Positions 8,603-29,538 of a stretch of 64,000 bases of DNA are shown in pieces; the first letter of the stretch is position 1; every line of letters starts with the position of its first letter. The stretch is from a virus. Position numbers and translations under genes: made by a program. The stretch spans positions 1-64,000 of the IMG/VR virus record IMGVR_UViG_3300025913_000022, one strand, 5' to 3'. The notes under the pieces were generated by a model. That model saw only the letters and a program-made list of their open reading frames with translations, did not search any database and was not told where the DNA came from.

Positions 8603-8636
8603 AAAAAGCAAAAAGCCCCTACTATTATTCGGGGCT
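8603..8636 (-). terminator. tmRNA terminator
   Basis: On the minus strand AGCCCC, loop and GGGGCT are followed by TTTTTGCTTTTTC shortly after the tag stop codon. Confidence 0.75.
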
Positions 8637-8642
8637 AATTGT

Positions 8643-8717
8643 TTACGCTGCTAAACGTTCTCTGCGTTTAGAAGTGCGGCATGCGTTTCTGTAATCAGAA
8701 AGGCTAACCACTTTTGC
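8643..8717 (-). CDS. tmRNA proteolysis tag reading frame
   Basis: From a GCA resume codon at 8717 the frame reads AKVVSLSDYRNACRTSKRRE then RLAA and TAA. The final LAA is typical of SsrA degrons. An A-rich strand precedes the GCA, as expected before a resume codon. A second GCA at 8684 would give a shorter tag, ACRTSKRRERLAA. The stop lies in a hairpin (CTAAACG/CGTTTAG). The tag is unusually basic and long if the first codon is used. Confidence 0.7.
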   Translation of the reverse strand, partial: AKVVSLSDYRNACRTSKRRERLAA

Positions 8718-8922
8718 TTTGTTGTCTTTTATCTTTTCGTATTTCTATTTCCTATAACTACCACACCCTGTCAAAACCGGTCGAGCCCATAGTTTGTGCC
8801 TTGTGCAAAACAAGGACTAATAAACAATCAGGTAACTACGCCACAACTGCTATTTGTGGACCCGGAGGGATTCGAACCCTCGTCCAAAAGCGCTGTTAAA
8901 GAACGTCAAACAAAATACAGAA

Positions 8923-8930
8923 CAAATGTA
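8923..8930 (-). promoter_or_regulatory. tmRNA promoter -7 box TACATTTG
   Basis: TACATTTG on the minus strand matches TAnnTTTG and lies about 35-40 nt before the T-arm of the acceptor piece. It is divergent from the rightward promoter at 8944. Confidence 0.5.
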
Positions 8931-10619: not shown

Positions 10620-10943
10620 TTATTTAAGAATCCCATAAAGTTCATTCTCGCGCATGATCAAGTATGTTTTGCCTTCAATTAACACAGCATTGCCTGAGTT
10701 CATACTAAAGAAAACAACATCACCTACCTTCACACTCATAGGCATAACACCTGTTACAGTGGCACCTGCAACAGATTGATCCAAACTTCTTCCCGGACCA
10801 ACTACTACAACTTTTCCTTTAGGTTGTATTTGTTTTTGAGCAGAGTCTGGAATAATTATTCCACCTGCAGTTTTTTCTTCAACGATAGGCTCAATAAGAA
10901 CACGATCGGCAAATAAGGTTACTTTTAATTCTTTCTCTTTCAT
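10620..10943 (-). CDS. groES: GroES-type co-chaperonin
   Basis: 107 aa with the full co-chaperonin pattern: VTLFADRVLIEPI at residues about 8-20, the mobile loop EEKTAGGIIIPDSA, then KGKVVVVGPGR, VKVGDVVFFS and the final YLIMRENELYGIL. Length and motif order match bacterial GroES (about 95-100 aa). It would cap host GroEL to fold phage proteins such as the capsid protein, as T4 gp31 does. No GroEL gene is in the window, so the host chaperonin is the likely partner. It lies between the RyR gene and two tiny membrane genes on the minus strand. Confidence 0.93.
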   Translation of the reverse strand: MKEKELKVTLFADRVLIEPIVEEKTAGGIIIPDSAQKQIQPKGKVVVVGPGRSLDQSVAGATVTGVMPMSVKVGDVVFFSMNSGNAVLIEGKTYLIMRENELYGILK

Positions 10944-13819: not shown

Positions 13820-14557
13820 TTATTGTTTTTTTGATTTAATAAAAATTACAGGCAGCAAAAATAACACTAATACTCCAGCTGAAAAAGCAATATCTGTAGT
13901 ATGACTATTTAAAATTGGCGTAACAACATTTCCGGGTATATAGTCGCACACTCCTGATAACATCAGTTTTACACCTAATATCGCAATTACGATAAATGTT
14001 ATCTTTTCGAGGAAAGGATACTTCTCAAGCAGTTTAATGAAGCCCTGAGCTACAAAACGCATGGCAAGTATACCTATGAAAACACCTACACAAATCAATC
14101 CTATTTTATCAGTAAAGGCAACTATAGCAAAGATATTATCTATAGAGAAAGTTAGGTCCATTAATTCTACAAGTACAACTGTGGTCCAGAATACACCCAA
14201 TCCTGCTTTTAATCTTTTGAAAATAATGTTACCTTCTTTTTCTATTTTCTCTTCAGCTTCAGCAGCCTCCTTTTTAAAGAAAAATTTAAAAGCTAACCAG
14301 CATAGGTATGCTCCACCAAGTATTTTCAACCATAGAATTTTTATAAGCCATGATGCAAACAGTAAACACGCACCTCTCAATATATAGGCTCCTATAATAC
14401 CATACTTTAAAGCTTTACTACGTTCGTTTGCAGGAAGATCCTGAACCATTGCTGCAAGTACTGCTGCATTATCCACCGATAAAAGGCTCTCGATCAAAAT
14501 TAAATTTAGTATTATAAAAATACTGGCTCCGAAATCTGTTCCAAAAAGTGCTTCCAT
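13820..14557 (-). CDS. terC: TerC family membrane protein
   Basis: 245 aa, at least seven hydrophobic segments. Carries both TerC signatures: LIESLLSVDNAAVLAAMV (residues about 21-38, Asp29) and ELMDLTFSIDNIFAI (Asp134, Asp140). These acidic residues sit in membrane helices and are linked to metal-ion handling, for example manganese export in TerC/Alx proteins. A charged cytoplasmic loop with EAAEAEEKIEKEG follows near residue 100. TerC is the membrane partner of TerD-type proteins in Ter systems. The gene follows a small unknown gene with a 1-nt gap and belongs to the leftward Ter-type cluster. Confidence 0.93.
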   Translation of the reverse strand: MEALFGTDFGASIFIILNLILIESLLSVDNAAVLAAMVQDLPANERSKALKYGIIGAYILRGACLLFASWLIKILWLKILGGAYLCWLAFKFFFKKEAAEAEEKIEKEGNIIFKRLKAGLGVFWTTVVLVELMDLTFSIDNIFAIVAFTDKIGLICVGVFIGILAMRFVAQGFIKLLEKYPFLEKITFIVIAILGVKLMLSGVCDYIPGNVVTPILNSHTTDIAFSAGVLVLFLLPVIFIKSKKQ

Positions 14558-14558
14558 T

Positions 14559-14807
14559 TTATTTTTTAATTGGTTGTTTTACGTAATGATTTTTAAGTTG
14601 AGGCGCATATTCTAGTATAGCTTCTATTTGTTTTTTACCCACATTGTATCTTGTTGGTATTAAATCATGAAGCAACAATACAATTGCATGCTCACTAAGC
14701 CCTGACTTTTTTATTTTTTCAAAAGCCTCTGACACCTGAATAATTGACTGGGCAATTAGCTCAGCTGGTTCTGGATTTTCTTCGTTTGTTTTAATTTTCG
14801 GTGCCAT
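14559..14807 (-). CDS. Hypothetical Ter-cluster protein (82 aa)
   Basis: ATG 14807 chosen over the TTG at 14816. Helical: PAELIAQSIIQVSEAFEKIK and AIVLLLHDLIPTRYNVGKK. No motif known to me. It is sandwiched between the VWA gene and terC with gaps of 1-2 nt, so it is co-translated with the Ter components and may be an accessory subunit. Confidence 0.65.
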   Translation of the reverse strand: MAPKIKTNEENPEPAELIAQSIIQVSEAFEKIKKSGLSEHAIVLLLHDLIPTRYNVGKKQIEAILEYAPQLKNHYVKQPIKK

Positions 14808-14808
14808 A

Positions 14809-15525
14809 TTAATCAATCAAATTGTGTTGTTTAGCTAACTTCAACCAGTCCGGAAACTCTCCAAATAATTTAGAATAAAGATCATTATCTGAAGCTCTGC
14901 TAAGATCAGGTAGTTGGAAAAAGTTTGCATTATCAATTAATCTTCCATCTAACGAATCAAGCTCTTTTAAAAATCTGAAAGATGCTGCACCTATACCTAC
15001 GAATTGAAAGAATACACCGTGGTTAGAAATATCTCTCAATGCTTTTTTAGTTTCAGAATGATCTCCATTTTCACCATCTGTTATGAAAATAACATATACA
15101 GGGAGTTTTAATTTATTTGCTTTTTTACCAAAACCTAGTTTACTTAATAAACCACCACCTTGTGTATAATCACTTTTTATTTTCTCAATAGGAGGAGCAT
15201 AATTAGTGCCACCAAAATTGTAATGACCAATTATTTCGTGATTAACAATACCTTCTACGTTTTCAACTGTAACATTGTTTTTATGTTTTTTACAACTGCT
15301 TTCAAAAAGATATAATTCGAATTCTTGATTATCGTCAAATTGCATAGCAACCGGCACAATTCTTTCCAATGTGTCCTGAACATCACCACGGCGATATAAA
15401 TCATCCATCGACATGGATATATCCATACATAAAACTACTTGTGCTTTCTGATTCTCAATTCCTTTACCTTTTATAAGGTTAAAGATCATTTCCTTTCGAA
15501 GATTTAATTTATTTAAGTCTATCAT
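14809..15525 (-). CDS. VWA-domain protein of Ter type (TerF/TerY-like)
   Basis: 238 aa. An intact MIDAS metal site: D35-I-S37-M-S39, T107 in FGGTNYAP, and D150 in FITDGENGD. The fold spans residues about 28-215. The region after T107 has a Gly/Lys-rich insert (GGGLLSKLGFGKKANK). VWA proteins of this kind accompany TerC, TerD, PRTase and HAD genes in bacterial Ter operons, where they are thought to assemble a membrane-associated metal-sensing complex. Binding of divalent metal is inferred from the intact motif. The gene follows the PRTase gene by 5 nt. Confidence 0.88.
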   Translation of the reverse strand: MIDLNKLNLRKEMIFNLIKGKGIENQKAQVVLCMDISMSMDDLYRRGDVQDTLERIVPVAMQFDDNQEFELYLFESSCKKHKNNVTVENVEGIVNHEIIGHYNFGGTNYAPPIEKIKSDYTQGGGLLSKLGFGKKANKLKLPVYVIFITDGENGDHSETKKALRDISNHGVFFQFVGIGAASFRFLKELDSLDGRLIDNANFFQLPDLSRASDNDLYSKLFGEFPDWLKLAKQHNLID

Positions 15526-15530
15526 ACGTT

Positions 15531-16364
15531 TTATTTTAATTGCTGTTTTATATAGTTTAAGTTTAGCGCGTAATCTTCAATTTTGTGATAACCATTTCCT
15601 ATTGCATTATGATAAAGTGTATGCACAAAAGAATGCTTTTGATATTGAATAAAAATTTTACACTCTTCATGATTTGCATTCAGAATATATTTGATCACTC
15701 GGGTATTCATCAAATACTCTTCGTTCTTAATTATTTTATCAAGACAATTTAAGTTTTTAACGAAGTAATAATTCAAATAGTTTTCTATGTTAGGATTTGC
15801 TTTTGTTCCTTTAAGCTCTGCGAAATACAAGAAGTAATGTGCCATGTGTTCAGTTAATTCGAACTTGTGTAACATATTTAATATTCTGTGTTCATGAGCT
15901 CCGGTGATGATTATATCATCTAAAAATAAACAAATCTTACCTTTAATGAAGTTAGCATCCACATAGAAGTCATCGTTTGCCATCACTGCGAATCTTTCTT
16001 CCTTATTCATTTCACCGTATTCTTCCTTATAAGAAGACCTGCGATATATTTTGCATTCCATTACAGGCTCGCAACTTTTCTTTATTAATTCGGCATTTAA
16101 AACGCGAATAAAATAATCTTTCATTGCAAAGGTGGCTGTAGGTATGTGCACAAAAGGAGATGATAAAACTACAATTCTAGTTTCTGTCCCGTGACAAAGT
16201 GAAACAATTTCTTTAAATTGTTTATTGGCAATAAATTTTTGAGCAAGCTCTGTTCCAAATTTTCTGGCTGCATCTTTACAGCCGAATTTGAACTTGCTAT
16301 ACTCTGTAGGATCAAATCCTAAATCGTTTTTATTAGTAAATGTATATGCTGAAAACTTATTCAT
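15531..16364 (-). CDS. Ter-cluster phosphoribosyltransferase-like protein
   Basis: 277 aa. The PRPP-binding loop is clear at about residues 144-156: ICLFLDDIIITGAHE, two acidic residues after hydrophobics then TGxxE. N-terminal part: KFGCKDAARKFGTELAQKF and IVVLSSPFVHIPTATFAM, typical of this divergent PRTase group. In bacterial Ter neighbourhoods such PRTases occur beside HAD hydrolases and are proposed to make or salvage a nucleoside-like metabolite. The C-terminal 80 residues are helical and unfamiliar. Adjacent genes lie within 3-5 nt, so one operon is likely. Confidence 0.8.
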   Translation of the reverse strand: MNKFSAYTFTNKNDLGFDPTEYSKFKFGCKDAARKFGTELAQKFIANKQFKEIVSLCHGTETRIVVLSSPFVHIPTATFAMKDYFIRVLNAELIKKSCEPVMECKIYRRSSYKEEYGEMNKEERFAVMANDDFYVDANFIKGKICLFLDDIIITGAHEHRILNMLHKFELTEHMAHYFLYFAELKGTKANPNIENYLNYYFVKNLNCLDKIIKNEEYLMNTRVIKYILNANHEECKIFIQYQKHSFVHTLYHNAIGNGYHKIEDYALNLNYIKQQLK

Positions 16365-16367
16365 GCT

Positions 16368-17066
16368 TTACAAAAGATCTTTAATTGTTTTTCCACTGTT
16401 GGAATTAATATGAAATGAATCCATTTTTATACGATTAGCACCAGCTATATCTGCAACCAGACTATCACCTACGTGAATTATGTCCTGCATTGTAATAGGA
16501 TTATGTATTCTATAACCTATAGTTTTATTTATCAAAGCTAAAAAAGGAAGCTCTGAAGGTTTAGATGCATTTATTTCATCCGAATAAATTTGAAAATCTA
16601 TAAGGTTGTGTAAATCATTTTTAAGTAAACCCATTCGTAAAGTGGACCCTCTTAGAAAAGCTGTATTAGAAAGTATTGATATGCTACAACCTCTTCTGTG
16701 TTTTAATTCAAACAAAGTAGGGATAGTGCTGTCATCAAATGGAGTTGCCGGGTATTGTAAGAATAATTTTTCCATCAATAAATAAATGCCTTGTATATCT
16801 CTGTAACTAAAATCATCCATTGGATAACCAAGTTTGTGTAACACCATTGTGTACATTTCAAAGGCATCTATATTATTACCGACTACTCGGTTTATCAAAT
16901 CAACCAAATCATCTACTTCCTTAAAAATTAATTTAATTTGGTCAATAGTTTTTTTACCACGATTAAAATGGTCGTGGAAATGTTCGGCTCTATATTGCTT
17001 AAATCTAGGATCAGATTTAATCAAGGTCTGCCATAAATCAAAAGAGTAGTGTTTATATTGCTTCAT
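16368..17066 (-). CDS. HAD-superfamily hydrolase of Ter cluster
   Basis: 232 aa. Motif I FDLWQTLI (Asp10; the usual second Asp is Trp12), a known variant in this HAD subgroup. Motif II is SILSNT near residues 148-153, motif III Lys lies in NASKPSELP near 185, and motif IV is HVGDSLVADIAGA near 205-217. A helical cap domain lies between motifs I and II. Loss of the second motif-I Asp can lower phosphatase activity, so the chemistry is uncertain. Together with the PRTase it forms the biosynthetic pair of the Ter module. Confidence 0.85.
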   Translation of the reverse strand: MKQYKHYSFDLWQTLIKSDPRFKQYRAEHFHDHFNRGKKTIDQIKLIFKEVDDLVDLINRVVGNNIDAFEMYTMVLHKLGYPMDDFSYRDIQGIYLLMEKLFLQYPATPFDDSTIPTLFELKHRRGCSISILSNTAFLRGSTLRMGLLKNDLHNLIDFQIYSDEINASKPSELPFLALINKTIGYRIHNPITMQDIIHVGDSLVADIAGANRIKMDSFHINSNSGKTIKDLL

Positions 17067-17077
17067 AAAAGTTGGGT

Positions 17078-17106
17078 TAAAAAACCTACGACTTTTACAT
17101 CGTAGG
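17078..17106 (-). terminator. Terminator between terD and the HAD gene
   Basis: On the minus strand CCTACGA and TCGTAGG pair around ATGTAAAAG-type loop sequence and are followed by TTTTTTAA. It lies after terD, so the abundant TerD message may end here with partial read-through into the HAD gene. Confidence 0.75.
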
Positions 17107-17136
17107 CTTTCATAACAACTAAACAGTTTTTAAATA

Positions 17137-17712
17137 CTACGCTTTGTAACGGTTAACGTAAGTATCTAAACCAGCTTTCTCACCTGTACCTGCAGCTTCA
17201 AACTTCCAAGCACCATTATGACGGTAAAGACGACCGAACATGACAGCAGTTTCTGAAGAAAAATCTTCCGATAAATCGTATTTAAGAACTTCGGCTTTTG
17301 TTTCAGTATCAAAAATACGAGCGAACGCATTTTTAACCTGACCAAAGTTTTGTTTACGGGCATCGGCTTGGTAAATGTTTACAATCACATTAATTGAATC
17401 AACATCTTCCGGAACTTTTTCTAAGTCCACTTCAATTACTTCATCATCACCATCACCAGCTCCTGTAAGATTATCTCCTTTATGAGTAACTGAACCACAA
17501 GGTGATTTCAAGTTATTAAAGAAAACAAAGTTTTTATCATTAATCAACTTACCGTTTTTGTCAAGCATAAAAACACTAGCATCTAAATCGAATGCTGGTG
17601 CATTTGCTCCACTAACATCCCATCCTAAACCGATAGATGCTTTTTTTAAGCTTGGCGCTTCTTTTGATAGATCAATTTTTTGACCTTTTTCTAAACTAAT
17701 TGTTGTGCTCAT
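17137..17712 (-). CDS. terD: TerD family stress protein
   Basis: 191 aa, full-length TerD. Motifs in order: SLEKGQKIDLSKEAPSLKKA (residues 6-25), IGLGWDV, FDLDASVFMLD (41-51), CGSVTHKGDNLTGAGDGDDE (72-91), then VDLEKVPEDV and the C-terminal AVMFGRLYRHNGAWKFEA. The acidic clusters FDLD and GDGDDE form the two calcium sites of TerD proteins. TerD proteins assemble with TerC and VWA proteins at the membrane in response to metal or envelope stress. First gene of the leftward Ter-type run, preceded by a TAGTTTTG box and an ACCAACAAAAA leader. Confidence 0.95.
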   Translation of the reverse strand: MSTTISLEKGQKIDLSKEAPSLKKASIGLGWDVSGANAPAFDLDASVFMLDKNGKLINDKNFVFFNNLKSPCGSVTHKGDNLTGAGDGDDEVIEVDLEKVPEDVDSINVIVNIYQADARKQNFGQVKNAFARIFDTETKAEVLKYDLSEDFSSETAVMFGRLYRHNGAWKFEAAGTGEKAGLDTYVNRYKA

Positions 17713-25231: not shown

Positions 25232-25316
25232 GCCCAGTTGGTGAAATTGGACAGAGACACGCCAGACTTAGGATCTGGTGCTTTAATGCATGAGGGTTCG
25301 AGTCCCTCACTGGGTA
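25232..25316 (+). tRNA. tRNA-Leu(TAG)
   Basis: Acceptor GCCCAGT/ACTGGGT, anticodon stem CCAGA/TCTGG with loop CTTAGGA, long variable arm, T-arm GAGGG/CCCTC. Reads CUA leucine codons. Confidence 0.95.
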
Positions 25317-25327
25317 CATAATAAAAT

Positions 25328-25415
25328 GCGTGAGTGGTGCAGATAGGCTGAGACACAACGGACTTAAAATCCGTGCGATAAGTTCACATCGTGGGTTCGA
25401 ATCCCACCTCGCGTA
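25328..25415 (+). tRNA. tRNA-Leu(TAA)
   Basis: Acceptor GCGTGAG/CTCGCGT, anticodon stem ACGGA/TCCGT with loop CTTAAAA, long variable arm, T-arm GTGGG/CCCAC. UUA is a very frequent codon in this AT-rich genome. Confidence 0.95.
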
Positions 25416-25420
25416 CAAAA

Positions 25421-25507
25421 GGAGAGTAGGCAAATAATGGTTTGTTGCACCGCACTGCTAACGCGGCTCATGTAAAAGTGATGAGGGTTCGAGCCCCTTG
25501 CTCTCCG
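25421..25507 (+). tRNA. tRNA-Ser(GCT)
   Basis: Acceptor GGAGAGT/GCTCTCC, loop CTGCTAA, long variable arm, T-loop TTCGAGC. One mismatch at the end of the anticodon stem. Confidence 0.9.
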
Positions 25508-25513
25508 CAATAA

Positions 25514-25596
25514 GGAAGGGGTCCGAATGGACGAGGAAACTGTCTTGAAAACAGCTGGTCGTAATTGGCTTGGGGGTTCGATTCCCTTCTCTTCCG
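25514..25596 (+). tRNA. tRNA-Ser(TGA)
   Basis: Acceptor GGAAGGG/CTCTTCC, anticodon stem CTGT/ACAG with loop CTTGAAA, long variable arm, T-loop TTCGATT. Confidence 0.92.
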
Positions 25597-25607
25597 CAAA
25601 ATTTAAT

Positions 25608-25680
25608 GGGAGTATCATCACCAACGGTAAGTATTCAGTCTGTAAAACTGCTAATCTAGGTTCGATTCCTAGTACTCCCA
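25608..25680 (+). tRNA. tRNA-Tyr(GTA), short variable region
   Basis: Acceptor GGGAGTA/TACTCCC, loop CTGTAAA, T-arm CTAGG/CCTAG. The variable region is short, whereas bacterial tRNA-Tyr normally has a long one. Confidence 0.88.
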
Positions 25681-25735
25681 CAAAAATTTCCAACTAGTTG
25701 CAACCGGTTGGAATAAAAAAAATTATTTTTTTTTG

Positions 25736-25765
25736 TTTGTATATTAAAAATAAAGTTTACATTTG
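25736..25765 (+). promoter_or_regulatory. Promoter of tRNA unit 2
   Basis: TTTG at 25736-25739 and TACATTTG at 25758-25765, spacer 18 nt (22 if the earlier overlapping TTTG is used). Confidence 0.65.
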
Positions 25766-25785
25766 CAGAAGTTAAAAACTAGAAA

Positions 25786-25887
25786 GTGCAAAAACAAATC
25801 GTCATAACAGGAATTTGGAATATGGAGAATACCGCGGGTAAAAGAGACTGTGCGTATGGGGCTTCTGCTTTTCGTTTTAGAGATTAA
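25786..25887 (+). CDS. Leader peptide 2 (33 aa, GTG start)
   Basis: GTG start 20 nt after the promoter box; product MQKQIVITGIWNMENTAGKR then DCAYGASAFRFRD. An internal ATG could also be used. The terminator at 25915-25940 and tRNA-Thr follow. Same promoter-ORF-terminator-tRNA layout as units 1 and 3. Confidence 0.35.
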   Translation: MQKQIVITGIWNMENTAGKRDCAYGASAFRFRD

Positions 25888-25914
25888 AATTTAAAACATA
25901 AAAAGGTAAAGGAG

Positions 25915-25940
25915 CCCGGCACAAAATGTCGGGTTTTTTG
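25915..25940 (+). terminator. Terminator ahead of tRNA-Thr
   Basis: CCCGGCA and TGTCGGG around CAAAA, followed by TTTTTTG. Confidence 0.75.
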
Positions 25941-25973
25941 TTTTAAGACGTTCTTTGATTAAAAAATAAATTA

Positions 25974-26046
25974 GCTGGTGTAGCTCAAGTGGCAGAGCGG
26001 GTGCCTTGTAAGCATCAGGTTGGGGCTTCGATCGCCTCCGTCAGCT
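25974..26046 (+). tRNA. tRNA-Thr(TGT)
   Basis: Acceptor GCTGGTG/CGTCAGC, D-arm GCTC...GAGC, loop CTTGTAA, T-arm GGGGC/GCCTC. Confidence 0.93.
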
Positions 26047-26110
26047 CAGTGATTCGTCCCCATAAAGGCAGATATAGTACGGGGACTGCATTAGAATCCA
26101 ATTTATTAAT

Positions 26111-26183
26111 AGCGATATAGCACAATTGGTGGTGCAAGCCTCTCATGATGGCTAGGTTGACAGTTCGAGTCTGTCTATCGCCA
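26111..26183 (+). tRNA. tRNA-Met(CAT) with A1-C72 mismatch
   Basis: Acceptor AGCGATA/TATCGCC with an unpaired first position, D-stem GCAC/GTGC, loop CTCATGA, T-arm GACAG/CTGTC. A 1-72 mismatch is an initiator feature, but the three G-C pairs of initiator anticodon stems are absent. It may be elongator Met, or Ile with a modified C. Confidence 0.85.
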
Positions 26184-26188
26184 CATAT

Positions 26189-26324
26189 GCGTCGGAAACA
26201 TTGACGGTGATGTATGCAGGTTCTTTTTGAATTTGTAAGGTGTGATAATTTTACAAAGGAGATGCTTAGGAATAATCAACCTAAGTTTGAGTTGGCAAAG
26301 CAGGTTCGAGTCCTGCCTGATGCA
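26189..26324 (+). tRNA. tRNA-like gene with about 60 extra nt
   Basis: Acceptor GCGTCGG pairs with CTGATGC over 7 bp. The D-arm is ACAT/ATGT with GG in the loop and the T-arm is GCAGG TTCGAGT CCTGC. The middle holds two extra hairpins (TTTGTAA/TTACAAA and CTTAGG/CCTAAG). A possible anticodon arm CTAA GTTTGAG TTGG would read TTG. The insert could be a small intron or a tRNA fused to another RNA. Confidence 0.45.
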
Positions 26325-26401
26325 CGAGGGGAAGGTCGTTGGTTCGAATCCAACATTGCCGCTGAAAGGTGGCGATTAGCTCAGCTGGCTAGAGCAGCCC
26401 C
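26325..26401 (+). tRNA. Permuted tRNA: 3' half upstream of 5' half
   Basis: The 3' half comes first: anticodon-stem strand GGGGA, variable AGGTC, T-arm GTTGG TTCGAAT CCAAC, acceptor strand ATTGCCG and C73 (26328-26362). After 7 nt (TGAAAGG) the 5' half follows: TGGCGAT, TA, D-arm GCTC AGCTGGCTA GAGC, A, GCCCC (26370-26401). TGGCGAT pairs with ATTGCCG over all 7 bp (two wobbles) and CCCC with GGGG. No other partner halves exist nearby. The anticodon lies at the break and cannot be read. Either a two-piece tRNA or a recombination scar. Confidence 0.5.
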
Positions 26402-26700
26402 GCGTTATTTGAAATATTGGTTGAGTGTAGTTACTACAGAAAGTCGGTGAGAAAAAGAATCTGCGAGATTTGACCCGATGAAATAGAAACTTTGAACGAA
26501 ATTCAATTTTGCTCCTGTTGATTGATTTTCTAGTATGTCTTCAGAAGTTGATAAAACTTTCAGGGGTGGTACCAGATCGAAAAGCACGAAAGTTTAATTG
26601 TATTAAGAGTAGTTTAATGAGACTTTCTTAGGATATTTTTTCTGTACGGGAAAAAGAAAATATGCAAACGTACACGCGTATTCTACAAAAAACACTCAAC
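26402..26700 (+). ncRNA. 300-nt structured non-coding stretch
   Basis: No gene, yet dense pairing: AATCT GCG AGATT enclosed by GTCGG and CCCGA, CTCCTG near 26510 with CAGGGG near 26560, and GAAAGT near 26590 with ACTTTC near 26622. It begins where the 5' half of the permuted tRNA ends. It may be an RNA that belongs to that gene, such as an intron part, or an independent sRNA. Confidence 0.35.
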
Positions 26701-26709
26701 CAAACAAAT

Positions 26710-26784
26710 TGGTAAATAGCTCAGCCCGGTTAGAGCGCCACGCTGATAACGTGGAGATCGATGGTTCAAATCCATTTTTACCAA
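26710..26784 (+). tRNA. tRNA-Ile(GAT)
   Basis: Acceptor TGGTAAA/TTTACCA, D-arm GCTC...GAGC, anticodon stem CCACG/CGTGG with loop CTGATAA, T-loop TTCAAAT. Confidence 0.95.
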
Positions 26785-26787
26785 CAT

Positions 26788-26863
26788 TGCGGGATAGAGC
26801 AGCGGTCAGCTCGTGTGGCTCATAACCATAAGGTCGGAGGTTCGAATCCTTCTCCCGCTACCA
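26788..26863 (+). tRNA. Initiator-like tRNA-fMet(CAT), CCA encoded
   Basis: Acceptor TGCGGGA/TCCCGCT with mismatch T1-T72, GAGC...GCTC D-arm, loop CTCATAA, AAGGTCGGAGG as in bacterial initiators, and an encoded ACCA end. A phage-borne initiator tRNA is unusual. Confidence 0.9.
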
Positions 26864-26865
26864 AT

Positions 26866-26937
26866 TCCTCCTTAGCTCAGAGGCAGAGCGCCGCCCTGTT
26901 AAGGCGAGGGTCGATGTATCGTAATCATCAGGAGGAG
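26866..26937 (+). tRNA. tRNA-Asn(GTT)
   Basis: Acceptor TCCTCCT/AGGAGGA perfect, loop CTGTTAA, T-arm GATGT ATCGTAA TCATC with an atypical T-loop. Confidence 0.9.
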
Positions 26938-26941
26938 CAAT

Positions 26942-27014
26942 GGCTCGTTAGGGGAGCGGAGTCCCTGCTACACTGTCACTGTAGAGACCATGGGTTCAAA
27001 TCCCATACGAGCCG
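26942..27014 (+). tRNA. tRNA-Asp(GTC)
   Basis: Acceptor GGCTCGT/ACGAGCC, anticodon stem CTACA/TGTAG with loop CTGTCAC, T-arm ATGGG/CCCAT. Confidence 0.93.
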
Positions 27015-27019
27015 CATAT

Positions 27020-27092
27020 GCACTGGTAGCTCAATTGGCAGAGCGTTGGTCTCCAAAACCAAAGGTTGTAGGATCGTTGCCTGCCCGGTGTG
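27020..27092 (+). tRNA. tRNA-Trp(CCA)
   Basis: Acceptor GCACTGG/CCGGTGT, anticodon stem TTGGT/ACCAA with loop CTCCAAA, T-arm GTAGG ATCGTTG CCTGC with an atypical T-loop start. Confidence 0.92.
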
Positions 27093-27150
27093 CAAAAAAA
27101 AGAAATGATGAAAAATAAAAAAGAAAGTGACGAACCTTTTGAGCGAATTT

Positions 27151-27223
27151 GCTCGGTTCGTCTAAAGGTTAGGACGTTAGGTTTTCAACCTAAAAATATG
27201 GGTTCGATGTCCCGTACCGAGTA
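27151..27223 (+). tRNA. tRNA-Glu(TTC)
   Basis: Acceptor GCTCGGT/ACCGAGT, anticodon stem TTAGG/CCTAA with loop TTTTCAA. The T-stem is weak (two mismatches). Confidence 0.88.
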
Positions 27224-27231
27224 CTAAAATC

Positions 27232-27305
27232 GCAGGTGACGCATAAGTGGTGGTGCGCCAGCCTTCCAAGCTGGAATAGATTCGGTTCGATCCCGAATAC
27301 CTGCA
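27232..27305 (+). tRNA. tRNA-Gly(TCC)
   Basis: Acceptor GCAGGTG/TACCTGC, anticodon stem CCAGC/GCTGG with loop CTTCCAA, T-arm TTCGG TTCGATC CCGAA. Confidence 0.93.
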
Positions 27306-27310
27306 CACAT

Positions 27311-27354
27311 GCCGAGTTGAAAGGGAACTCACAGTGGGAGCACTGCCCCTCGGC
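27311..27354 (+). ncRNA. 44-nt three-stem mini element
   Basis: GCCGA pairs with TCGGC and encloses two hairpins, GTT GAAAGGG AAC and CAGTG GGAG CACTG. It sits exactly where another tRNA would be expected, between tRNA-Gly and tRNA-Cys, but has no T-arm. A degenerate tRNA or processing element. Confidence 0.35.
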
Positions 27355-27361
27355 TCCAATT

Positions 27362-27434
27362 GGTTCCATGGGTGAGTGGATATAACTCAAGGTCTGCAAA
27401 ACCTTGTACGCTGGTTCGAATCCAGCTGGGACCT
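27362..27434 (+). tRNA. tRNA-Cys(GCA)
   Basis: Acceptor GGTTCCA/TGGGACC, anticodon stem AAGGT/ACCTT with loop CTGCAAA, T-arm GCTGG/CCAGC. Confidence 0.93.
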
Positions 27435-27442
27435 CTAGTAAT

Positions 27443-27517
27443 GCGCTCTTAGCTCAGGTGGTTAGTAGCAGCTCACTCATAATGAGCAGGTCGGTGGTTC
27501 AAGTCCATCAGGGCGTA
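27443..27517 (+). tRNA. tRNA-Met(CAT), elongator or Ile2 type
   Basis: Acceptor GCGCTCT/AGGGCGT fully paired, anticodon stem GCTCA/TGAGC with loop CTCATAA. Third CAT tRNA in the array; if C34 is lysidylated it reads AUA isoleucine codons. Confidence 0.9.
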
Positions 27518-27531
27518 CTGAAAATATAAAT

Positions 27532-27604
27532 GGGTTGTCATGTTCCTTGGCTGGCGAGAATGATTTGCAATCACTCTGGAAGAGTTCGAAACTCTTACGA
27601 TCCA
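27532..27604 (+). tRNA. tRNA-Ala(TGC)
   Basis: Acceptor GGGTTGT/ACGATCC carries the G3-U70 wobble that marks alanine tRNAs; loop TTTGCAA gives TGC; T-arm AAGAG/CTCTT. The D-arm is poor, so the isotype rests mainly on G3-U70 and the loop. Confidence 0.78.
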
Positions 27605-27608
27605 CAAT

Positions 27609-27683
27609 ATCTGCATAGCTCAGTTGGTTCAGAGCGCTTGCCTTACAAGCAAAAGGTCGTTGGTTCGAATCCAGCTGCGGATA
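27609..27683 (+). tRNA. tRNA-Val(TAC)
   Basis: Acceptor ATCTGCA/TGCGGAT, D-arm GCTC...GAGC, loop CTTACAA, T-arm GTTGG/CCAGC. Confidence 0.93.
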
Positions 27684-27770
27684 CTTAAAATAAAAACCAC
27701 ATGCTCCTGATTAGGAAATATAAAATAGTTTTTGCTGTTCTTCGAAAGAGGAAGGGTAGATGATTTATAT

Positions 27771-27842
27771 TCCCTCGTGGCAAACAGGTGTAGGCAGTAG
27801 GCTTTTAATCTATAGGGTCCGGATCGTTACCGGACGGGGGAA
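27771..27842 (+). tRNA. tRNA-Lys(TTT)
   Basis: Acceptor TCCCTCG/CGGGGGA, loop CTTTTAA, T-arm TCCGG ATCGTTA CCGGA; D-arm weak. It ends 6 nt before the HNH gene. Confidence 0.85.
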
Positions 27843-27848
27843 CTTTAC

Positions 27849-28223
27849 ATGAGTAAGACTAAGAATAAAAAGCTCGGTATGAATGTTAGTACCGCGAATA
27901 ATAGATTAAGAAAAAAACTTCTTTTTCATTTTGCTAAACTTTTAGGTTTAGATGATTGTTACAGATGTCATAAGAAGATAAAAAACCTTGAAGAATTTTC
28001 TATAGAGCATAAAGAATCTTGGATGAGTTCTAAAAATTCTTTGGATAAATTTTTTGATTTAGATAATATTGCTTTTTCTCATTTGATTTGTAACATTAAG
28101 TTTGAACGGATTAAAACAGGAGTAAAACACCCTTCGCATAGGGCATATAACCAAGGGTGTAGATGTGATGGTTGTAAGAATGTAGAAAAAGAACGTAGAA
28201 GGAGTCAACGTCAAAATAAATAA
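27849..28223 (+). CDS. HNH endonuclease inside tRNA array (124 aa)
   Basis: LLGLDDCYRCHKKI (residues about 37-50) gives a Cys pair, EEFSIEHKESWM supplies the first His of the HNH core, and LDNIAFSHLICNIKFE supplies the Asn/His part. A second CRCDGC Cys cluster near residue 105 can bind zinc and the end is basic. Free-standing HNH enzymes are common between phage tRNA genes and may move or expand such arrays. Start ATG 27849 lies 6 nt after tRNA-Lys and the stop 6 nt before tRNA-Arg, so it is transcribed with them. Confidence 0.85.
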   Translation: MSKTKNKKLGMNVSTANNRLRKKLLFHFAKLLGLDDCYRCHKKIKNLEEFSIEHKESWMSSKNSLDKFFDLDNIAFSHLICNIKFERIKTGVKHPSHRAYNQGCRCDGCKNVEKERRRSQRQNK

Positions 28224-28229
28224 AATTTT

Positions 28230-28303
28230 GGTTCTATAGCTCAACTGGATAGAGCACCAGCCTTCTAAGCTGGGGGTTCTTGGTTCGAATCCAAGTAGGA
28301 TCA
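28230..28303 (+). tRNA. tRNA-Arg(TCT)
   Basis: Acceptor GGTTCTA/TAGGATC, anticodon stem CCAGC/GCTGG with loop CTTCTAA, T-arm CTTGG/CCAAG. Reads AGA, the main arginine codon here. Confidence 0.95.
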
Positions 28304-28324
28304 CAAAAAAAAATAAAAATAAAT

Positions 28325-28355
28325 TTTGTAGTGTAAAAAACTATTTATAGATTTG
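28325..28355 (+). promoter_or_regulatory. Promoter of tRNA unit 3 (TTTG-N19-TAGATTTG)
   Basis: TTTG at 28325-28328 and TAGATTTG at 28348-28355 with 19 nt between them; ATG of leader 3 follows after 4 nt. Confidence 0.78.
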
Positions 28356-28359
28356 TCGC

Positions 28360-28440
28360 ATGAAAAATATTACTTTACATCAATTTCCGTTTCAGTTTCG
28401 CCCGGTAGGAGCGAAGGGGAATGGTTGTATCCGGATGTAA
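28360..28440 (+). CDS. Leader peptide 3 (26 aa)
   Basis: ATG 4 nt after the promoter box; product MKNITLHQFPFQFRPVGA then KGNGCIRM. The terminator at 28467 and tRNA-Pro follow. Third instance of promoter, short ORF, terminator, tRNA. Confidence 0.4.
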   Translation: MKNITLHQFPFQFRPVGAKGNGCIRM

Positions 28441-28466
28441 ACTAAAGTTTATCAAAGATATTCGAA

Positions 28467-28499
28467 GCCCCTTCTGAAAAGTTGGGGCTTTTGTTTTTT
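28467..28499 (+). terminator. Terminator ahead of tRNA-Pro
   Basis: GCCCC and GGGGC around a 12-nt loop, followed by TTTTGTTTTTTG. Confidence 0.75.
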
Positions 28500-28508
28500 G
28501 AAATATTT

Positions 28509-28581
28509 CGAGATGTAGTTCAGTTGGTAGAATACGTGCTTTGGGAGCATGGGGTCGTCGGTTCGAGTCCGGTCATCTCGA
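28509..28581 (+). tRNA. tRNA-Pro(TGG)
   Basis: Acceptor CGAGATG/CATCTCG, anticodon stem CGTGC/GCATG with loop TTTGGGA, T-arm GTCGG/CCGGT. Confidence 0.95.
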
Positions 28582-28583
28582 CT

Positions 28584-28733
28584 AAATTGTTGAAACGGGG
28601 TAGCGCCGTTCTTAGCGTAATCGCGTATGGTCCCATTGAGTTGGGGACAATAAGTCCATACGGTAAAGGCTGTCAAAAATGGGGAAGAGAAATCTTAGTA
28701 AGAAGGTTTACCGATGCAAGTTCGGAACAATTT
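28584..28733 (+). ncRNA. 150-nt multi-branched structured RNA candidate
   Basis: Ends AAATTGTT (28584) and AACAATTT (28733) pair perfectly. Inside are AACGG/CCGTT, the long arm CGTATGG (28624) with CCATACG (28662) enclosing TCCC/GGGA, and GTAAA (28663) with TTTAC (28711). No tRNA arms and no good reading frame. It fills the whole gap between tRNA-Pro and tRNA-Phe, so it should be transcribed with them. Family not recognised. Confidence 0.5.
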
Positions 28734-28738
28734 AATTT

Positions 28739-28810
28739 GGAGCCATAGCTCAGTAGGTAGAGCAGCAGACTGAAAATCTGCCCGCACTGGTTCGATTCCA
28801 GTTGGTTCCA
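28739..28810 (+). tRNA. tRNA-Phe(GAA)
   Basis: Acceptor GGAGCCA/TGGTTCC, D-arm GCTC...GAGC, anticodon stem GCAGA/TCTGC with loop CTGAAAA, T-loop TTCGATT. Confidence 0.95.
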
Positions 28811-28859
28811 CTTTTATTTTTTTTTTTTGAATCTAAATTATAGATTCAAAATTTATTTT

Positions 28860-28867
28860 TATTTTTG
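28860..28867 (+). promoter_or_regulatory. Promoter -7 box TATTTTTG
   Basis: Matches TAnnTTTG and ends 4 nt before ATG 28872; preceded by hairpin GAATCTA/TAGATTC. Confidence 0.45.
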
Positions 28868-28871
28868 TACT

Positions 28872-29270
28872 ATGAAATTATGTACAACATGTAAAATAGA
28901 AAAAGACGAAAGTGAGTTTAATAAAAATGAAAGGCAAGGAATTCAAAGTAAGTGTAGGTCTTGTAACAGTGAATATCTCAAAAATCATTATAAAAACAAC
29001 CGAAAATATTACATAGATAAGACAAAAAATAGACGTAAAAGTATAAGAAAATTTATTAATTCTTTGAAATTAAAATGTGTACGATGCCCTGAAAATCATA
29101 TAGCTTGTTTAGATTTTCATCATCTATCGGATAAAGATATAAACATTGCTGACCTTGTTAATTCGGGAGCATCAAAAGAAAAAATATTGCAAGAAATTTC
29201 TAAATGTGTTGTTCTTTGTTCAAATTGTCATAGAAAACTTCACTATAATGAAAGAAAAATTGTCTCATAG
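28872..29270 (+). CDS. HNH endonuclease with zinc ribbon (132 aa)
   Basis: N-terminal CTTCKIEKDESEF and CRSCNSEYLKNHY form a four-Cys zinc ribbon (residues about 4-32). The HNH core is CLDFHHLSDKD and CVVLCSNCHRKLHY (about 77-130). Start set at ATG 28872, 4 nt after a TATTTTTG box; upstream codons would lie in the promoter. Its TAG stop falls inside the tRNA-Gln gene that begins at 29261, so gene and tRNA overlap by 10 nt. Likely a homing-type nuclease of the array. Confidence 0.85.
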   Translation: MKLCTTCKIEKDESEFNKNERQGIQSKCRSCNSEYLKNHYKNNRKYYIDKTKNRRKSIRKFINSLKLKCVRCPENHIACLDFHHLSDKDINIADLVNSGASKEKILQEISKCVVLCSNCHRKLHYNERKIVS

Positions 29271-29332
29271 TGTAAAGGCAACATGTCTGGTTTTGGACCA
29301 GAAGATTACAGGTTCGACCCCTGTTGAGATAA
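29261..29332 (+). tRNA. tRNA-Gln(TTG)
   Basis: Acceptor TGTCTCA/TGAGATA, starting with the U1-A72 pair usual for Gln tRNAs; anticodon stem TCTGG/CCAGA with loop TTTTGGA; T-arm ACAGG/CCTGT. Its first 10 nt are the end of the HNH gene. Confidence 0.93.
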
Positions 29333-29334
29333 CT

Positions 29335-29407
29335 GGGGCTTTTCGTCTAATGGTTAGGACGCTTGCTTGTGGAGCAAGAAATTTCGGTTCGAATCCGTGA
29401 TAGCCCC
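29335..29407 (+). tRNA. tRNA-His(GTG)
   Basis: Extra G at position -1 facing C73, acceptor GGGCTTT/ATAGCCC, anticodon stem CTTGC/GCAAG with loop TTGTGGA. G-1 is the histidine identity element. Confidence 0.92.
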
Positions 29408-29416
29408 CAGACATAT

Positions 29417-29488
29417 TCCAACGTCGTCTAATGGACAGGACACAGGGCTACGGACCTTGGGGTGGGAGTTCGATTCTCTCCGATGGAA
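29417..29488 (+). tRNA. tRNA-Arg(ACG)
   Basis: Acceptor TCCAACG/CGATGGA (one mismatch), loop CTACGGA, T-arm GGGAG/CTCTC. A34 needs conversion to inosine to read CGN codons. Confidence 0.88.
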
Positions 29489-29538
29489 CTTATTATCAAC
29501 AAAACATTAAAATAGTATTTTGTGTGTTAAAACTATTT

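Follow-up and report, generated by a model that had tools for sequence, protein, structure and literature searches.

Does a phage genome encode, in two pieces and in permuted order, a complete RNA for trans-translation that adds a peptide tag of its own? This question is raised by a locus in positions 1-64,000 of the virus record IMGVR_UViG_3300025913_000022 (129 kb in full), a stretch of 64,000 nt that we analysed and refer to as the window. A preliminary description placed the T-arm and the 3′ acceptor strand ahead of the 5′ acceptor strand and the tag frame on the minus strand. The window does contain a circularly permuted tmRNA gene in this order (8897-8614, minus strand).

Architecture of the permuted tmRNA gene

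The Rfam model RF04321 (tmRNA_permuted) matches the gene over its full length with 57.7 bits against a gathering cut-off of 47 (E = 1.4e-8 for the 64 kb searched), and ARAGORN, which is independent of Rfam, calls a permuted tmRNA (tmRNA*) at the same locus. The RF04321 cut-off was passed in only 1 of 14 control genomes. The one-piece tmRNA model RF00023 stays at 21.8 bits, under its threshold of 47. The feature is therefore real and lies in the order originally described. The covariance search proposed in that description succeeded with the merged model, which unites the alpha-, beta- and cyano-tmRNA families (PMC11915505), but not with the clade models themselves (RF01849/50/51): beta_tmRNA gives 38.8 bits, far under its cut-off of 84, and the gene is absent among the matches listed for the alpha and cyano models. 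It thus fits RF04321 and none of the three clade models. Its membership in RF04321 is borne out by a score above the curated threshold, the permuted order, pairing between the pieces, the alanine identity and a tag frame. The parts of the locus, all on the minus strand, are as follows.

8923..8930, minus strand: candidate promoter TACATTTG, weakly resembling the Bacteroidota -7 box TAnnTTTG (sequence only)
8857..8897, minus strand: acceptor piece (RF04321 alignment, two-piece cofold, covariation in 30 permuted viral genes)
8897-8886, minus strand: 3′ strand of P2, followed by GGAC, in the acceptor piece
8881-8865, minus strand: T-arm, in the acceptor piece
8864-8858, minus strand: acceptor 3′ strand CGGGUCC, in the acceptor piece
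8857, minus strand: discriminator A (A73), end of the acceptor piece
8789..8856, minus strand: intervening sequence of 68 nt between the two pieces, predicted to be excised from the precursor
8763..8788, minus strand: 5′ end of the coding piece (7/7 pairs with the acceptor piece, including G3-U70)
8788-8782, minus strand: acceptor 5′ strand GGGCUCG, start of the coding piece
8781-8770, minus strand: D-like ACCGGUUUUGAC, in the coding piece
8769-8763, minus strand: 5′ strand of P2, AGGGUGU (P2 duplex -6.6 kcal/mol)
8643..8726, minus strand: tag frame with resume codon GAC, 27 amino acids and stop (ARAGORN, spacing from GAC, frame kept in contig L173)
8614..8636, minus strand: hairpin AGCCCC-11 nt-GGGGCU, followed by a T-rich run at 8614-8602 (sequence and fold)

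Folded together as separate RNAs, the acceptor and coding pieces form the T-arm, the acceptor stem and the P2 helix, in which AACAGCGCUUUU pairs with AGGGUGUGG. The 7-bp pairing of the acceptor strands noted earlier is correct, two of the pairs being G-U, the expected D-like sequence is present in the 5′ part as ACCGGUUUUGAC (8781-8770), and the tag frame ends, as had been claimed, in LAA-TAA at 8643. The sequence displays the alanine signal (G3-U70, formed by G8786 and U8860, and A73, at A8857). The acceptor piece does not encode CCA, which would thus need to be added. Between P2 and the tag, the RNA folds at only -0.3 kcal/mol and looks unstructured, so that no clear counterpart of the usual first pseudoknot is seen ahead of the tag. 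In fold energy, the complete precursor is no better than shuffled sequences (z = -0.65).

The hairpin and T-run are a probable intrinsic terminator that would mark the 3′ end of the coding piece; a comparable element lies 3′ of the tag stop in two other viral contigs, L173 and L102. A terminator scan restricted to 8-nt loops did not list the window hairpin, which has an 11-nt loop. The candidate promoter is without a good -33 element. As the neighbouring genes lie on different strands and the gene has a terminator-like hairpin of its own, it looks like a stand-alone unit.

Pairing and tags across viral genes

Relatives were collected by pattern scans of IMG/VR followed by RF04321 on 50 chosen records, of which 34 passed the cut-off; the window gene therefore does not stand alone. 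When 30 permuted viral genes were aligned, strong covariation emerged in the acceptor stem and in P2, far beyond shuffled or slid controls. All seven acceptor pairs are formed in every sequence (100% paired), P2 is paired in 82% of cells, and the 15 distinct acceptor stems are each 7/7 paired. Changes on both sides of a pair occur in 89 cells, compared to 25.6 in shuffles, and the covariation score is 0.442, compared to 0.136 when shuffled and ≤0.125 when slid. The U-G at the 3-70 pair is invariant (30/30), though fixed by the search patterns. Since these patterns fixed parts of the T-arm and acceptor pairs 1-3, and a filter demanded at least 6 of 7 acceptor pairs, the independent weight rests mainly on the changes seen in acceptor pairs 4-7 and on the unfiltered P2. 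The spacers of these relatives range from 15 to about 170 nt and are dissimilar in sequence. T-arm motifs are common and the window phage has numerous tRNAs, so a tRNA-like stretch might by chance lie beside an open frame; the E value of 1.4e-8 for the whole model, the conserved tag and above all the covariation across two separated pieces refute this reading in practice, and we give it almost no credence.

The tag frame was read by comparison with other permuted viral genes. In the 31 genes read, the D-like part ends in GAC, and the interval from this GAC to the resume codon is nearly constant (roughly 35-46 nt). The window's GAC at 8726-8724, about 43 nt after that point, has this spacing and an A at position -4, and it is most likely the resume codon of a predicted 27-residue tag, DNKAKVVSLSDYRNACRTSKRRERLAA. 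This reading replaces the earlier lengths of 13 or 24 residues; the GCA that would start the 24-residue tag is rejected, as both spacing and the A at -4 favour GAC. That the tag would be basic and end in LAA held up: its net charge is +5, and its character is kept in a second phage contig. This contig, L173, carries DKNKTKVVSLADYRNACSTTKRVRLAA at the same place, and the two frames differ at 4, 1 and 10 sites in codon positions 1, 2 and 3, respectively (10/15 in the third, binomial p = 0.009), a bias that supports selection on the peptide. The tag of L102, DKKEAKVIAFVPKAEAPRVEMKIAA, retains the window tag in part. A pattern back-translated from the window tag matched only L173/L183.

Most tags of the permuted viral genes begin with G and fall into few types: GK(V/L)(V/I)x(M/L)...PLRAVA, GEQVEMAMAA, GNxNIVDYTGLKEAA in the crAss-like permuted genes, and the long basic KVVSLxDYRNAC..RLAA, to which the window tag belongs. 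The last type is shared by the IMG/VR contigs L173/L183 and L102/L241, which also have a terminator-like hairpin after the tag and spacers of 66-69 nt, like the window's. A terminase large subunit (TerL) of the window type is absent from these contigs, which may mean that the tmRNA passes from one phage group to another or that the L102 and L173 contigs are partial.

The conserved tag frame also bears on whether the RNA might be a tRNA-like decoy that, bound to SmpB and EF-Tu, blocks trans-translation in the host without tagging, as has been proposed for mycobacteriophage DS6A. A tag-less phage form has been reported to inhibit endogenous tmRNA (PMC11915505; PMC4131195), and the window's coding piece has no visible upstream pseudoknot. 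The frame that is missing in DS6A is, however, present here and conserved at the protein level in L173, and the resume spacing is maintained across the viral set. With the tag frame thus conserved, a decoy is less likely than trans-translation, and we regard it as improbable.

The carrying phage and a proposed mechanism

The preliminary proposal of a phage genome is supported, and the tRNA-like domain of the gene is complete. The TerL, portal and capsid genes are of crAss-like type (PHROGs 6681, 6547 and 11589). TerL has about 25% identity to its matches in Crassvirales and Flavobacterium phages. Most of its relatives belong to Crassvirales, Flavobacterium and Cellulophaga phages, and this marker-gene kinship makes the Bacteroidetes host assumed earlier (a Bacteroidota host) plausible. 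Two observations do not back this assumption: the capsid is matched best by that of Leptolyngbya phage Lbo-JY46, which was recorded on a cyanobacterium and lacks an RF04321 match, and the whole 129-kb record shows no enrichment of the Bacteroidota promoter motif (10 occurrences vs 7.3 expected; 8 vs 3.5 in the window). On the 129-kb count, the motif was dropped as host evidence.

The window tRNA genes (1746-1823 and 25232-29489) cover 19 amino acids; one of them, Tyr(GTA) at 25608-25680, is called by Rfam but not by ARAGORN. A tRNA-Ala was not found in the 129 kb, which leaves the tmRNA as the phage's only predicted alanine-accepting RNA. Nor were SmpB, ClpP or a Clp ATPase (AAA_2) found in the 129-kb record, which may be incomplete, and factors of the host would thus be needed. 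The minus strand of the window also carries a Ter-type stress cluster (13820-17712; TerC, vWA-TerF-like, PRTase_3, HAD hydrolase and TerD by Pfam) and a GroES-like co-chaperonin gene (10620-10943).

Combining these findings, we consider it likely that the locus is a functional permuted two-piece tmRNA gene of a crAss-like phage that serves trans-translation with the host machinery. For its processing, charging, tagging and proteolysis, and for its benefit in infection, we infer the following course. A short precursor would be made from the gene's own transcription unit and end at the post-tag hairpin. Host RNase P would cut at G1 of the coding piece (8788), host enzymes would trim the 3′ end and add CCA at the acceptor piece, and removal of the 68-nt spacer would leave two RNAs, joined through P2 and the acceptor stem. 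This tmRNA would be charged by the host's alanyl-tRNA synthetase via G3-U70 and A73 and taken by host SmpB to ribosomes that have stalled on a broken or nonstop mRNA. The ribosome would resume at GAC and append the 27-residue basic tag ending in LAA, and the product would pass to a host ClpXP-type protease; as suggested earlier, host proteases might read this tag differently. The phage might gain from ribosome recycling or from tolerance of mRNA cleavage in infection.

Origin and comparison with known systems

Permuted tmRNAs are also called by ARAGORN in several crAss-like GenBank phages (cr114_1, cr125_1, cr60_1 and cr273_1) and in the cultured Chryseobacterium phage MA9V-3, whose tag is GNVIDINKYVAKLEVAA. 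Under RF04321, cr114_1 (50.9 bits) and MA9V-3 (64.7 bits) are above the cut-off and cr273_1 (46.2 bits) is just below it. Within the spacer of the cr114_1 gene lies a tRNA-His gene (L002 642-714), in three crAss-like phages RNAs of the Rfam families RAGATH-9 or RAGATH-20 immediately precede the permuted tmRNA (L002 118-285, L243 393-561 and L244 232-333), and MA9V-3 has an annotated ClpX gene about 4 kb from its permuted tmRNA (L245 26938-27777). None of 32 contigs with TerL relatives of the window phage is above the RF04321 cut-off, and three near-full-length relatives without any RF04321 match indicate that the permuted tmRNA is dispensable in this TerL clade. A pattern using the window's own acceptor letters gave zero matches, as did the permuted pattern in its TTTTGAC form in 84,980 genomes; the TTYGAC positive control found only 6, and with so narrow a pattern the lack of matches does not prove that bacteria are without this form.

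We built two trees of the tRNA-like domain from 72 rows and 70-80 columns; the second left out columns 1-12 (the acceptor 5′ strand) and retained the P2 strand. A single group of all permuted rows is rejected (p-AU 0.008; 0.006 without columns 1-12), and a single group of the phage permuted rows less firmly so (p-AU 0.039; 0.076 without these columns). Some phage permuted rows cluster with one-piece genes that have the tags GEENYALAA and GNEEFALAA, which we take to be of the kind familiar from Bacteroidota. The row nearest to the window is that of L188, a one-piece gene from a phage (highest identity 77-79%), with starred support only without columns 1-12. Because the columns are few and partly paired, the tree is a lead and not proof.

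These data also speak to the notion that a permuted ssrA was acquired from an alpha-, beta- or cyanobacterium and persists here as a decaying or cargo copy devoid of function. Sporadic occurrence within the TerL clade and the sub-threshold beta_tmRNA match would suit such a copy. Against it, every pair is intact, G3-U70 included, differences in the tag frame are biased to third positions, the alpha and cyano models do not list the gene, and in the tree the window shows no specific grouping with the bacterial permuted rows; we therefore deem it very unlikely. We tentatively raise the possibility that crAss-like and related phages hold a phage-born permuted lineage, which arose by fresh permutation of one-piece ssrA genes, independently of the alpha-, beta- and cyanobacterial forms, and has its own tag vocabulary (GKVVxM..PLRAVA, GNxNIVDYTGLKEAA and the long basic KVVSLxDYRNAC..RLAA). 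If so, infection would re-label rescued proteins.

As a kind, the phage-borne two-piece tmRNA is known: such structures account for 53 of 133 unique tmRNAs from 18,146 phage genomes, and 50 of the 53 come from marine or aquatic phages (PMC9004378). Methylophage Melnitz and other marine phages carry a permuted ssrA like the window phage, but the two-piece tmRNA of Melnitz has alphaproteobacterial kinship (PMC9004378), whereas the window type is not among the matches listed for the alpha model. With RF04321 members the window gene shares the leading acceptor piece, the spacer, the 7-bp stem with G3-U70, the T-arm, P2 and a tag ending in AA. It differs in its TTTTGAC, which is TTTCGAC in most alpha-like rows here, in not encoding CCA and in its 27-residue basic tag, the commonest tag length being 10 residues (PMC11915505). 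The tmRNAs of cr114_1, cr125_1, cr60_1, cr273_1 and MA9V-3 have the domain features of the window gene, but their tags, GN...DYT...AA or GNVIDINKYVAKLEVAA, are 13-17 residues long. Their records give a plain 'tmRNA' annotation, and the permutation is unmentioned in the passages of the MA9V-3 paper that we consulted (PMC13120357). In the open-licence literature we found no account of crAss-like or Bacteroidota phages having a permuted form of their own, and a phage-side permuted family with its own tags seems undescribed.

The window gene thus belongs to a broad viral set of permuted tmRNA genes that has hardly been noticed before, and its predicted tag is unusually long and positively charged. 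A phage-born lineage, if true, would extend the few known two-piece tmRNA lineages by a viral branch and provide a natural test case for the frequency of permutation among tmRNA genes. It would also raise the question of why phages swap the host's protein tag during infection, which, with MA9V-3 in culture, is directly testable.
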